Shown here: piece by piece, positions 4,390 to 48,651 of the stretch
Numbering within the stretch: position 1 is the first letter of the stretch
Layout: every line of letters starts with the position of its first letter
Assembly: GCF_000146185.1 (NCBI RefSeq)
Contig: NC_012778.1
Coordinates: 330,001 to 394,000, forward strand
DNA length: 64,000 bases
Reading direction: 5' to 3'
From: [Eubacterium] eligens ATCC 27750
GTDB taxonomy: Bacteria > Bacillota > Clostridia > Lachnospirales > Lachnospiraceae
The notes under the pieces: generated by a model
Database searches by the model: none
Seen by the model: the letters and a program-made list of their open reading frames with translations, nothing else
What the model was told of the DNA's origin: nothing
Translations under genes and position numbers: made by a program

Positions 4390-4648
4390 CTTGCTGTGAC
4401 ATTGATAGCTGTGAAGCGTGAGGTTGCTGCTTTAATAAAGCAGGTTTTCCGTGGAGCGAATGTCAATGCTGGAGATAATCTCCGGCGAAGAAACTGGCGA
4501 CAAGTCACTGTACCAAAATCATCTGCAATCCGCAGAAATGACGCGCGTGGGTCGAATTATGAATGAGACTATATGATACGCGTGGGAGTGTGTACAGTCA
4601 CCGCTTGTCGTACTTAAACAATAAAGTGCGAAGGAGGCGACTTTTTTT
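4390..4648 (+). promoter_or_regulatory. structured 5' leader of the S10 operon
   Basis: No gene lies in this 259-base stretch, but it folds densely by eye. GACATT (4398-4403) pairs with AATGTC (4459-4464) around a hairpin with 7-bp arms (4427-4443). A second hairpin is at 4471-4483 (GGAGA/TCTCC). A long-range helix joins CGACAAG plus ACTGTAC (4498-4513) to GTACAGT and CTTGTCG (4592-4610), enclosing a CTGC/GCAG hairpin (4523-4535) and a CGCGT/ACGCG helix. The closing strand lies about 20 bases before the Shine-Dalgarno AAGGAGG (4631-4637). This is the layout of a ribosomal-protein leader; S10-operon leaders are known in Clostridia, but I cannot confirm the family without a covariance model. 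Confidence 0.65.
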
Positions 4649-44413: not shown

Positions 44414-45766
44414 ATGGATTCAATTAATATGTGCTACGAAATGTGTGATTATATAGAGCAGAATGGCATTGTGAAGCTGGTAGGAAATACAAGGCTCCGC
44501 GACAATCTTAAGAAGGAGTTTCTGCATTTTCTAATATATATATCAATGATAGATGAAAGGTACGGCGAGCAGGAAAAAGCATTTATAAAGAAGAAGCTGG
44601 GGTTTGAGGTCAGTGCCTTAATGGCGGCTGATATTAAGAACCGCAACATGCTTGGAGCAGGCTATATTACAAAAATGCCAGAGACATTTAAGTATTTTAT
44701 ACTTGCCAATGCAGGCCACAAGATTAAGAACGACAGATACGACAACAAAGAGGCGCGGACGCTGGCAGAAAGCTACAGGAAGCTCGGACAGGAATATCTG
44801 GCTGCGAATACTGAAAGCACCGAGGTCGAGATAAATGTTTTATCATCATACTGTGTGATGCTGGACGAGAATCTTAAATCATACGGTCTGCTGCGTCCTG
44901 ATTACAAGAGTGTGACAATACAGGCAGAGACAGAAGATGACGAAAAGCCGGACGCTGATGAACTAATTGCAGAACTTAATTCACTGACGGGACTTACTGC
45001 AGTTAAAGAAGATGTCAATGCACTTATTAATCTTCTTAAAGTTCAGAAAATGCGTGAGCAGATGGGAATGAAGCAGACAAGCGTCAACAAACACCTTGTA
45101 TTCATGGGAAATCCAGGAACAGGAAAGACGACAGTTGCAAGACTGCTTGCCAGAATATATAAGGCAATAGGGGCAATCTCAAAAGGACATCTTGTGGAAG
45201 TAGACCGTTCAGGACTTGTGTGTGGTTACATAGGTCAGACAGTGACGAAGACTGCAGAGGTAATAGAATCAGCACTTGGAGGAGTCCTGTTCATAGACGA
45301 AGCATATACACTTACTAATGGAAAAGGTCAGGGCGATTTCGGACAGGAAGCTGTAGACACATTATTAAAAGGAATGGAAGACCACAGAGATGATTTAGTT
45401 GTAATAGTGGCAGGTTATACAGAACTGATGGAGGAATTCTTAGATTCCAATCCGGGACTGCGTTCAAGATTTAATAAATTCATTAACTTCGAGGATTATA
45501 CAGCCGAGGAAGAGGTTGAGATACTTATAAACAACTGCAAGAAACAGGAATACATGCTTTCCCGTGATGCGCTTGAGGAAGCAAGAAGATTCTTTACAGA
45601 CCGGGTAGCCGATAAGCCAGAAGGCTATGCTAACGCAAGAGATGTAAGAAACTATCTCGAAAAAGCCATATCCAATCAGGCAACAAGGATAGTTGGACTT
45701 AAGGATGTGGATAAGAATATACTGGCGATGCTGGAGAAAGAGGATCTGGTAGGGATTGAGTTGTGA
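44414..45766 (+). CDS. CbxX/CfqX (SpoVK)-type AAA+ ATPase with TerB-like N-terminus
   Basis: 450 residues. Residues 1-160 are helical; FLHFLIYISMIDERYGEQE (37-55) recalls TerB-like domains. The AAA module (185-450) has Walker A GNPGTGKT (232-239), Walker B VLFIDEA (291-297), sensor VIVAGYT and arginine finger PGLRSRF, as in CbxX, SpoVK and EccA-like ATPases. Probably a hexameric remodelling motor. It follows the TPM gene by 31 bases, so zinc-ribbon, TPM and ATPase genes look like one operon. Its client is unknown. Confidence 0.82.
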   Translation: MDSINMCYEMCDYIEQNGIVKLVGNTRLRDNLKKEFLHFLIYISMIDERYGEQEKAFIKKKLGFEVSALMAADIKNRNMLGAGYITKMPETFKYFILANAGHKIKNDRYDNKEARTLAESYRKLGQEYLAANTESTEVEINVLSSYCVMLDENLKSYGLLRPDYKSVTIQAETEDDEKPDADELIAELNSLTGLTAVKEDVNALINLLKVQKMREQMGMKQTSVNKHLVFMGNPGTGKTTVARLLARIYKAIGAISKGHLVEVDRSGLVCGYIGQTVTKTAEVIESALGGVLFIDEAYTLTNGKGQGDFGQEAVDTLLKGMEDHRDDLVVIVAGYTELMEEFLDSNPGLRSRFNKFINFEDYTAEEEVEILINNCKKQEYMLSRDALEEARRFFTDRVADKPEGYANARDVRNYLEKAISNQATRIVGLKDVDKNILAMLEKEDLVGIEL

Positions 45767-45771
45767 CATAC

Positions 45772-45997
45772 GGGAGGTTGTGGCAGACGGACGCGGCAGG
45801 CGGGTGGATAGTGTCATTTTCAGACACGCTCTCGCTCGGTGAAAAACGCAGCTGTACTAAATTCACTGGTTTGCCGCATAAAATGCGGCTCCCAGCTCAT
45901 TAAGTGCAGGCGTTTTTCAACGGTCTGAAACTAACACTATCCACCCGACCGCCGCTCACTTCGCCAGCGCCTCCAGATGTCGCAAGCTCATCTGGAG
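45772..45997 (-). repeat. structured repeat element, copy 1
   Basis: 226 bases in the gap behind the ATPase gene. A 107-base core (45821-45927) lies between inverted repeats (GGTGGATAGTGT 45803-45814 with ACACTATCCACC 45934-45945, extendable outward by GC-rich arms). Read on the minus strand the core has a 9-bp helix GAAAAACGC/GCGTTTTTC, a hairpin with GCCGCAT/ATGCGGC arms, and conserved CACTTAATGAGC and TTTAGTAC loops. A side hairpin CTCCAGATG/CATCTGGAG ends it (45971-45997). The rest of the gap, to 46126, has two direct repeats TGATGAAGTC(C/T)AAAA (46029 and 46091) and no gene. Confidence 0.8.
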
Positions 45998-46126
45998 GGG
46001 GAGTGGATTTTAGCGTGTAGGGAAGGTTTGATGAAGTCCAAAAGGGAAGCTGAAGCGTGGCGGATTGGACGTTGAAGCGGGGAGAGGGCATGATGAAGTC
46101 TAAAAAGGCAAGAGAGGAGAAACACG

Positions 46127-46663
46127 ATGGGAATAGTGTATTTTACAAGGCATGGTCAGACTGTCTGGAATGTTGAGAATAAGATATGTGGGGCGACGGA
46201 TTCGCCGCTCACAGAGTTGGGGCATGAACAGGCTGTAGAATTGGGGAAAAGAATTCTGTCAGAGGGAATACATATAGATGAAATCCTGTATTCGCCACTT
46301 ATAAGAGCGAAAGCTACAGCACTTCATGTATCTGAGATTACAGGAATACCAGCGCGCGAAGAGATAAGACTTAAGGAACAGAATTTCGGTAAATACGAAT
46401 CAACTCCAAGAGATGGAGAAGAATTTGCTAAAGCCAAATGTAACTTTATATGCAGCTTTGATGGAGGAGAGACAATGCTTCATCTTGCACAGCGCATTTA
46501 TAATCTGATTGACGATATAAAGGCGCAGCCTGATAAAACATATCTTTTAGTTGCACATAATGGAATTGCACGAATGGTAAAGTCATATTTTGAGGATATG
46601 GGAAATGAGGAGTTTTCGGCTTTTAAGATAAAGAATTGCGAGATATTGAAGTTTGAGTTTTAA
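46127..46663 (+). CDS. histidine phosphatase (phosphoglycerate mutase family)
   Basis: 178 residues with the catalytic RHG motif (FTRHGQTVWN, H9), the central SPLIRAKATA segment and a late VAHNGIARM histidine. It is like the cofactor-dependent mutase/phosphatase family (CobC, GpmB-type); substrate unknown. AGAGGAG precedes the ATG. The gene is bracketed by two same-orientation copies of a roughly 227-base repeat, an arrangement through which recombination could delete it. Confidence 0.85.
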   Translation: MGIVYFTRHGQTVWNVENKICGATDSPLTELGHEQAVELGKRILSEGIHIDEILYSPLIRAKATALHVSEITGIPAREEIRLKEQNFGKYESTPRDGEEFAKAKCNFICSFDGGETMLHLAQRIYNLIDDIKAQPDKTYLLVAHNGIARMVKSYFEDMGNEEFSAFKIKNCEILKFEF

Positions 46664-46672
46664 GATTGACGT

Positions 46673-46899
46673 CTGGGAGGTGGTGGCGGACGGACGCGGC
46701 GGGCAGGTGGATAGTGTCATTTTCAGACACGCTCCCGCTCGGTGAAAAACGCAGCTGTACTAAATTCGTTGGTTTGCCGCATAAAATGCGGCTCCCAGCT
46801 CATTAAGTGCAGGCGTTTTTCAACGGTATGAAACCAACACTATCCACCCGCCCGCCGCTTACTTCGCCCCCTCCCAGATGTCACAGGCTTATTTGGGAG
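46673..46899 (-). repeat. structured repeat element, copy 2
   Basis: 227 bases, same orientation as copy 1 and nearly identical to it in the core (46724-46830). The outer arms CTGGGAGG (46673-46680) and CCTCCCAG (46869-46876), plus the GCGGCGGGC...GGTGGATAGTGT inverted repeat, enclose it. The side hairpin (46871-46899) has an extra C.G pair relative to copy 1, a paired insertion. Begins ten bases after the phosphatase stop. Confidence 0.8.
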
Positions 46900-46950
46900 G
46901 AGATGTGATGCCGGCAGGTTTACGACACCGTGCAGTGCTGAGAAAGCCAG

Positions 46951-47117
46951 CCGTGTTAATTATGTATATTCCCCGACACAGACCGTTGGAAAACGTCGGC
47001 ACTTAACGAGCCTGAGAAGCCGCGTAAAGCGGCGCACGACAAGGCGAGTTTAGTACCGTTACGTTTTCCACCGAGCGGGAGCGTGTCTGGGGAGGGAAAT
47101 ATACATAATTAACGCGG
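46951..47117 (+). repeat. structured repeat element, copy 3 (inverted, different arms)
   Basis: Core at 46979-47089 on the plus strand, opposite to copies 1 and 2. Conserved with them: CAGACCGTTG start, CACTTAA(C)GAGC, GTTTAGTAC, and CACCGAGCGGGAGCGTGTCTG-type end. The helix is GGAAAACGT/ACGTTTTCC here (two compensated changes). The flanking inverted repeat is quite different: CCG(T)GTTAATTATGTATATT at 46951-46970 with its complement at 47098-47117. Downstream to 47223 I see only AT-rich sequence with a TATAAT at 47173-47178 before the next gene. Confidence 0.75.
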
Positions 47118-47223
47118 AGTCCGTCTCTCACAATTTACAAAAACAAAACTAGACCGAAATATTACTTTGCGTTATAATCAGACAGCGAAAGATGCAAATA
47201 TATCAGAAGAAAGAGGCATAAAA

Positions 47224-48651
47224 ATGTTTAATAAATCAATTATAAAAAAGGCAGCGGCGATAGCAGCAGTAATACTTGCAGTGACAGCACTTCCGACTAA
47301 TATGACGAAGGCAGATACACAAACATCAGGAAGTACCGTAAGCCAGACAACATCAGAATACACAGAAATCCGAACAGCGTCAGAACTTGTGGAAGCAGCT
47401 AAGAGTGCGTCAGGAAATTATAAACTGATGACAGATATAGATATGACAGGAGTTGAGTGGACGCCATGGGATTTTTCGGGAACATTTGACGGTAACGGAC
47501 ACAGCATACTTAACCTGTCAGTAAAGACAGTAAGCAAGAAGACAATGAAGACCTATGACGGCAACAGAAAAGAGTACAAAACATACGGCGCAGGCTTCTT
47601 TGGGGTGCTTACAGGTGCGAAAGTAACAGGACTGGATATATATGGAGCAAGAATTGAGATTACTACAACGGAACCATGTTTTGCGGCACCAATAGCAGGG
47701 CTTGCAGACGACAGCGACATATCAGACTGTATAATTAAGGATACATATGTGTCACTCACAGATTCAGCTAAAATGTGGGGAACAGGCGGAATCGCTGGAT
47801 TTGGAAGCGGCAATCTTGATAATATTACTACAGATGTGACACTTGTATGTGTAGATACAGACGCAGCGGTCAGGGACGAGCAGTTCATGGGAGGCGCGTA
47901 TGCAGCAGGTTTCCTTAATATAAGGAATTGTTCTATAACAATAGATGGATATGATTCAGACCACGGATATGTGCATGATGGCGGACTTGTCGGCATGTAT
48001 ATGGTATATCCATTGGAACTGTCAAAGACATATCAGGGCGAAGTGCTTAACAACAAAGTTAAGGGAATGATAACATTTTTCGAAGACAATACAGACCGCC
48101 GTGCATACTGTCAGGCAAATATGGGTGAGGTCATGAACTGGACATATGCATATTCAGGCTTCACATCAGATTTTAAGAGAAATGAGACATATGATTATTC
48201 AGTGACACTGCTTCCGGAAATGTGCAGCAATCCTTCATACACAGATGTAGTGACAGAAGCAACAGCATCAGACTTTGGATACACAACACACACCTGCAGT
48301 ACATGTGGCTACACATATTCAGACACTTACACAATACATGAGCATAAGGTCGACAGTTACAGCGTGGTAAAGGAAGCAGCCAGCACAGACAAGAAAGACG
48401 GAATAGAGGCAGGAACATGCAGCCTGTGCAATCAGACAGTTTACAGGGAATATGCTGCAAATGTAGTAACAGACGATAATACACAGGCAACAGACAATAA
48501 AGCATCAGGCACGGCTGTCAAAAAAGGAATGAAAGAAAGTACAGCAGTATTTGCAGTAATATTGGTGGTAATAGTTATTGTAATAATTATAACAGTAGTC
48601 ATGATGGTACAGAATAATAAAAGAAAAAGAAGATATAACAGACGCAGATAG
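47224..48651 (+). CDS. surface protein with GLUG-like repeats and C-terminal membrane anchor
   Basis: 475 residues. Signal peptide about 1-27 (LAVTALPTNMTKA). The FDGNGHSILNLSV motif with following short strands (ITGLDIYGARI-like, GGIAGFGSG) recalls GLUG-type beta-helical repeats of adhesins. A CxxC-rich HTCSTCGYTYSDTYTIHEH segment near residue 360 may bind metal. The end holds a membrane helix (about 440-463) and an Arg/Lys tail without a sorting motif. ATG at 47224 is chosen over an upstream TTG because it has AAAGAGG and a signal peptide directly after it. Likely cell-surface, function unknown. Confidence 0.65.
   Translation: MFNKSIIKKAAAIAAVILAVTALPTNMTKADTQTSGSTVSQTTSEYTEIRTASELVEAAKSASGNYKLMTDIDMTGVEWTPWDFSGTFDGNGHSILNLSVKTVSKKTMKTYDGNRKEYKTYGAGFFGVLTGAKVTGLDIYGARIEITTTEPCFAAPIAGLADDSDISDCIIKDTYVSLTDSAKMWGTGGIAGFGSGNLDNITTDVTLVCVDTDAAVRDEQFMGGAYAAGFLNIRNCSITIDGYDSDHGYVHDGGLVGMYMVYPLELSKTYQGEVLNNKVKGMITFFEDNTDRRAYCQANMGEVMNWTYAYSGFTSDFKRNETYDYSVTLLPEMCSNPSYTDVVTEATASDFGYTTHTCSTCGYTYSDTYTIHEHKVDSYSVVKEAASTDKKDGIEAGTCSLCNQTVYREYAANVVTDDNTQATDNKASGTAVKKGMKESTAVFAVILVVIVIVIIITVVMMVQNNKRKRRYNRRR

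Follow-up and report, generated by a model that had tools for sequence, protein, structure and literature searches.

An apparently unnamed family of dispersed palindromic elements with a conserved, folded core in Lachnospiraceae

The window, by which we mean the whole 64,000-nucleotide stretch of the Lachnospira eligens genome analysed here, contains three copies of a palindromic element. Copy 1 is flanked by genes for an AAA+ ATPase and a histidine phosphatase, and the phosphatase gene is followed by copies 2 and 3, arranged as an inverted doublet (Table 1). A first-pass annotation had located the three cores, and sequence comparison confirmed their positions and strands as well as the helix changes that it quoted between copies 1 and 2 and copy 3. 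That annotation described a core of about 107 to 111 bases. The core is real but the feature is larger: an outer stem of ~31 bp, self-complementary in each copy, extends the core in all three, and weaker complementarity beyond the stem reaches about 215 bp in copies 1 and 2. Copies 1 and 2 share 93% identity over 202 nt. The outer stem of copy 3 is unrelated to theirs in sequence, yet it is 85% self-complementary over 33 nt.

Table 1. Positions of the three palindromes and their parts in the window
Feature	Position	Strand	Description
Copy 1, whole palindrome	45766..45980	-	Outer helix, ~31-bp variable stem, core and variable apical hairpin; arms 58/60 nt
Copy 1, conserved core	45821..45927	-	From sequence comparison of cores
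Copy 1, mini-hairpin GC-GAGA-GC	45828..45835	-	GNRA-type loop, 3' half of core
Copy 2, whole palindrome	46669..46881	-	Arms 56/60
Copy 2, conserved core	46724..46830	-	From sequence comparison of cores
Copy 2, mini-hairpin GC-GGGA-GC	46731..46738	-	Read from sequence
Copy 3, whole palindrome	46951..47117	+	Arms 33/33
Copy 3, conserved core	46979..47089	+	From sequence comparison of cores
Copy 3, mini-hairpin GC-GGGA-GC	47075..47082	+	Read from sequence
Copies 2 and 3, inverted <- -> doublet	46713..47100	.	119 bp apart

The compound pattern CACTTAAYGAGC-N20-50-TTTAGTAC occurs three times in the window and in none of 100 dinucleotide-preserving shuffles. Compared with 200 shuffles, the folding z-scores on the two strands were -9.8 and -11.1 for copy 1 and -7.2 and -8.0 for copy 3. 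The covariance-model match of copy 1 (45810-45942, 153 bits) arises by construction, since copy 1 is in the model. When copies 1 and 2 were compared with the copies at L006 in genome G013, both G013 sites were found to carry one and the same apical hairpin, different from that in the window; another apical hairpin is common to both sites in the window's own genome and in G007. That apical hairpins are alike at both sites within a genome suggests conversion between neighbouring copies. Elsewhere in the window, positions 4403-4503 of the plus strand hold an ordinary known leader, RF03136 (S10-Clostridia ribosomal protein leader), matched at 77.3 bits.

A first covariance model was built from 9 copies and a broader one from 111. 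The 9-copy model found matches in 15 of the 22 genomes of the same genus and, at E <= 0.01, in 132 of 397 Lachnospiraceae genomes, representing 117 of 334 genera; 26 of the 132 positive genomes had at least 8 copies, 8 being the most that were scored in any one genome. By the 111-copy model, L. eligens has 21 copies, of which the chromosome carries 16 and the megaplasmid 5. A locus on this megaplasmid matches NZ_CP085937.1 over 6000 bases with 100% identity. The count of 21 is used in place of the 23 matches to the 9-copy model, some of which may be copies read a second time on the antisense strand. The element measures roughly 170-220 bp, and insertions compared between sister species measure 168-220 bp. 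Applied to 391 genomes across the class, the 111-copy model matched 12, of which 11 belong to the same family and 1 to another. The lone match outside the family (G705:C1:14343-14455; 27.7 bits, E 4e-4) is borderline and could be due to chance or to a distant relative. A pattern scan of contigs from named species matched at least 118 stretches; among the 80 matches listed, most carried Lachnospiraceae titles, and the others bore labels such as Clostridiales, Eubacteriaceae and, in the case of three contigs of one metagenome assembly, Muribaculaceae. Neither a search of phage sequences nor a viral pattern scan gave a match to the element. As far as seen, the family is restricted to Lachnospiraceae.

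Rfam, searched at gathering and at permissive thresholds, returned no fitting family over the element; the sole match, to MIR2084, scored 22.7 bits, compared with a gathering threshold of 100. This agrees with the first-pass annotation, which recognised no known family. The covariance search of Lachnospiraceae and Rfam that it had proposed as a check yielded many matches, covariation and varied neighbours, and no Rfam family. Searches of open-licence PMC full text brought up no description of the palindrome family, and the family is apparently unnamed. Present in so many of the sampled Lachnospiraceae genomes, it is nevertheless without an Rfam model.

In an alignment of 110 distinct copies, pairing is seen in 93.8% of cells, two-sided changes occur in 42 of the 43 pairs, and the covariation score is 0.722, compared with at most 0.127 for slid structures. 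The massive covariation, the many further copies and their varied neighbours bear out the earlier proposal of a structured element rather than a decayed gene. The two stretches CACTTAAYGAGC and TTTAGTAC, previously described as single-stranded, are mostly paired with each other (ACT/AGT and AAY/RTT on the two sides of a T.T mismatch, then tandem G.A). On the CACTTAAYGAGC strand, each T of the inner-helix T.T is kept in 108 of 109 copies, the tandem G.A at 82-91% per position, and the A preceding the two-pair mini-hairpin in 110/110. The loop is of the GNRA type in 109 of 110 copies (GAGA 39, GAAA 24, GGGA 24, GCAA 10, GGAA 9, GCGA 2 and GTAA 1), the sole exception being GCGC. Both the length and the sequence of the apical hairpin differ between copies. 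At L083:3359-3448, an ortholog of L074:2675, the inner core hairpin has been lost and the ~31-bp outer stem is still complementary, with clustered change on both arms.

GNRA loops are best known from RNA. Sheared GA pairs and GNRA-like loops are stable in single-stranded DNA as well as in RNA and, because such loops are stable in both, the conserved unpaired letters point to a recognised one-strand fold without deciding the polymer. Since the GNRA loop, the tandem GA and the T.T are kept on one strand, the fold of that strand is probably recognised by something.

With paired bases that change in concert, the elements resemble RNA genes, and the first-pass annotation had read the compensatory changes as selection on RNA or hairpin-DNA structure. 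Under the RNA alternative, the element would be a structured RNA, regulatory or located in 3' untranslated regions, whose one-strand fold is selected and whose dispersal is incidental. The covariation and the letters kept on one strand agree with it, as does the rarity of matches between divergent ORFs (8 of the 100 matches with both neighbours called). However, very strong covariation need not mean RNA, and the kinds of mismatch tell another story. In the outer arms (symmetric alignments, 98 distinct matches), we counted 200 G-T and 185 A-C mismatches, along with 624 others, many of them in distal parts. These matches remained after 4 antisense matches among 108 had been dropped before the placement and arm counts, leaving 104, of which 98 are distinct. 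Single changes of a Watson-Crick pair between orthologs led 130 times to G-T and 126 times to A-C (27 pairs, each taken in both directions and some of them not independent). SRP RNA from 28 genomes of the family, used as a control, gave 584 G-T and only 14 A-C (28 of 30 loci, taken from among 56 genomes with a match, two contig-end loci being dropped). Thus, a simple count of G-T against A-C separates the element from SRP RNA, and the near 1:1 ratio argues against an RNA. So does the symmetry of folding: the two strands of the element fold equally well (-48.9 versus -48.2 kcal/mol), whereas SRP RNA folds at -92 kcal/mol in sense and -48 kcal/mol in antisense orientation.

With the structure fitted to the GNRA strand, the ratio of G-T to A-C was 170:80 in the model alignment and 169:66 with RNAalifold, and a further alignment fitted to the same strand gave 122:45 (98 distinct; last five of 108 rows left out). 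Fitted to the other strand, the structure gave 161:126. Because an excess of G-T is also seen on the opposite-strand fit, it stems partly from fitting; a weak strand-specific component behind the ~2:1 excess is possible. The 27 ortholog pairs contained 133 two-sided changes, 99 of them from one Watson-Crick pair to another, as opposed to about 34 expected by arithmetic from the same counts if the two sides were independent.

How the arms evolve was compared in 39 copies from G106, G417 and G418, three genomes of one genus in which near-identical cores lie at different loci. Among these copies, 206 pairs had cores sharing at least 97% identity. In such pairs, the mean identity of the left arms was 0.673, whereas the value for an arm and its own partner was 0.751 and that for shuffled arms 0.555. 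In the same three genomes, the core was reversed between conserved flanks at 5 of 13 orthologous loci (L098 and L175 versus L163; L153/L183; L155 and L170 versus L178; L156 and L186 versus L172; L166/L177). These loci come from draft genomes and G106 is apparently a metagenome-assembled genome, so that assembly error is possible for the inversions. In Lachnospira, none of 14 loci was inverted (ortholog pairs with both flanks matched), the 13 "MIX" rows and 1 "FLIP" row of the same comparison being read as neighbouring non-orthologous copies that share one flank. Arm homogenisation together with spacer inversion is described in PMC8604942 as the signature of polymerase template switching between inverted repeats, and PMC8794818 puts forward the same process as one origin of compensatory hairpin changes. 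Both parts of this signature are seen here, the inversion in one genus only.

Selection on RNA structure, one of the options in the first-pass annotation, is not supported by the compensatory changes: the arms have about as many G-T as A-C, unlike SRP RNA, and the core is inverted between species at some loci. The inversions within that genus, the several loci that are empty in sister species (see below) and a scan of positions 45600-47300 of the window, in which no terminator-like site was found, likewise count against a structured RNA, which we consider unlikely.

Filled and empty sites were compared between sister species. The element is present at one site of G106 (G106:C8), and G418 is empty there; its allele is 181 bp shorter, with TGT repeated and with flanks 97% identical. 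In alignments, G404, G416, G419, G421 and G422 are broken near this site, with no element match; in G417 the query aligned with the left side alone, and in G420 it found no match. At eight more sites, an element-free sister allele was found at five (L096, L151, L164, L167 and L168); sisters have truncated, altered or diverged alleles at L154 and L165, and no orthologous flank was found for L091. Presence/absence polymorphism is thus seen at 6 of 9 sites. Outgroups support insertion over loss at a single site, G106:C8, which also has the only clear short repeated junction (3 bp, TGT). We claim no fixed target duplication because the junctions at the other sites are ragged in the alignments.

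Other readings were rejected. Insertion into pre-existing terminators and copying of the arms from the target are both contradicted by the comparison of G106 with the empty site of G418, where the arms come in together with the element; the scan of positions 45600-47300, with no terminator-like site, agrees with this. The absence of the L072 copy from G007 was considered as a further empty site and is read as a deletion because arm remnants persist. The first-pass annotation had offered an RNA gene and a mobile hairpin as its two options; the insertion polymorphisms, the near-identical cores at different loci and the presence of copies on both chromosome and megaplasmid favour the second.

A hairpin that moves could be a conventional MITE, that is, an internally deleted relative of an insertion sequence (IS) with long terminal inverted repeats. 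A palindromic, non-coding and dispersed element of 100-250 bp with empty sites would fit. In a MITE, however, the ends are expected to be conserved, whereas in this family conservation lies in the middle and the outer arms are variable, and no clearly consistent target duplication was seen, the repeat being 3 bp at one site and unclear at the others. The search for an autonomous relative yielded six partial copies in G106, G417 and G418, which have no gene between their halves and look decayed; neither an autonomous copy nor a mobilising enzyme came to light. A conventional MITE therefore appears distinctly improbable. ORFs lying between distant pairs in L017 and L031 were considered as element-borne genes and rejected; judged by their sequence, they look like a gene for a GatC-like subunit next to one of tRNA synthetase type.

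Sorted by their flanking ORFs, the 104 matches fell into 28 convergent, 64 tandem, 8 divergent and 4 undetermined gaps, a tally based on crude ORF calls with orthologs counted separately. Close pairs were inverted (<- ->) in 22 of 23 cases; the sole head-to-tail pair lies at L060:1372-1611, its members being 20 bp apart. On the right side, CGTC occurs 29-34 nt beyond the core in 31 of the 104 matches, as opposed to 4 of 104 anywhere in the corresponding stretch on the left. It was found at the right-hand foot of 0/39 copies of the G106 group.

PF01797, the Y1/RAYT domain, showed no association with the element: 20 of the 39 genomes that carry the element have it, as do 27 of the 41 taken to be free of the element (80 genomes in all, absence of the element being judged from the 9-copy-model search and one G106 query). 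It was not found in G106 or G418, and G106 has many near-identical copies. The megaplasmid of L. eligens carries a Y1 transposase reading frame with an in-frame stop (G000:C2:120969-121328), presumably of an IS200-like element, and no copy of the palindrome lies within the 3.4 kb examined there. These observations bear on the reading of the element as a REP/REPIN family that a RAYT or Y1 (HUH) transposase would move, GTCC/CGTC at the outer foot serving as the tag. We regard this reading as very doubtful: the inverted doublets, the placement and the CGTC tag do resemble REPs as portrayed in PMC3733652, but the element greatly exceeds 20-40 bp, only a minority of copies have the foot motif, which is missing from the G106 group, PF01797 does not follow the distribution of the element, and the Y1 gene of the L. 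eligens genome is interrupted.

We conclude that these elements probably constitute a non-autonomous, dispersed palindromic DNA family whose core is recognised as a fold and whose complementarity is kept mainly by copying at the DNA level. As a folded single strand (DNA in replication or transfer, or possibly RNA), the core would be the target of a trans-acting enzyme, by analogy with REP and IS200-type elements. At a stalled fork, one arm may be copied from the other, by template switching or arm conversion. Such copying would rewrite both arms together and now and then invert the core, and stem complementarity would be kept mainly by the DNA itself. Because arm copying would rewrite both arms together, the RNA-like covariation may largely be a by-product of replication. 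Against this reading, the conserved letters of one strand show selection on a one-strand fold; the lack of inversion at the 14 Lachnospira loci and the ~2:1 excess of G-T on the fit to one strand also count against it.

A bolder proposal is that the family is a new kind of element: a hairpin with a folded core (GNRA loop, tandem and probably sheared GA, three-way junction), read by a putative fold-reading enzyme, perhaps through an RNA or single-stranded DNA intermediate, with a stem whose sequence is free to change because replication recopies one arm from the other, and a core inverted in place by the same process. We put this forward tentatively and think it somewhat unlikely. If true, bacteria would have a mobile element of a categorically new kind, read by its fold rather than by terminal repeats. 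The enzyme that moves the family should be findable.

Our best reading remains a palindromic DNA family with DNA-level copying of its arms, new and REP/MITE-like, with a larger conserved core. Bacterial MITEs are non-coding and palindromic and are mobilised in trans. The present family differs from them in that conservation is central rather than terminal, and no parent IS was found for it. With REPs and REPINs, as characterised in PMC3733652 (Di Nocera et al. 2013), it shares dispersed intergenic palindromes located mostly near gene 3' ends, inverted doublets and, in some of its members, a tag beside the stem. REPs are 20-40 bp long with a short conserved stem and a GTAG or CGTC tag, whereas the elements reported here have a conserved internal core, a mini-hairpin and a variable ~31-bp stem in a unit ~170-220 bp long. 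The CGTC-tagged class of REPs is likewise without a known transposase in that account, the main text of which has no occurrence of Firmicutes or Clostridi-. The bcr1-bcr18 repeats of the Bacillus cereus group (PMC3446304) are also dispersed, intergenic and MITE-like in a Gram-positive host, and conserved RNA structure is predicted for some of them. They occur in another host group, and the passages of that paper on these repeats make no mention of core inversion or arm rewriting.

In how its arms change, the family parallels template-switched inverted repeats (PMC8604942, PMC8794818), for which arm homogenisation, compensatory multi-base changes and spacer inversion are likewise reported. The cases presented there are short inverted repeats in genes, or RNA genes, and the inverted spacers of the yeast study comprise 2-5 substitutions, whereas here a core of ~110 bp is inverted in a dispersed family. 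The palindrome family thus offers a natural system for the study of template-switch evolution in bacteria, with changes visible between sister species.
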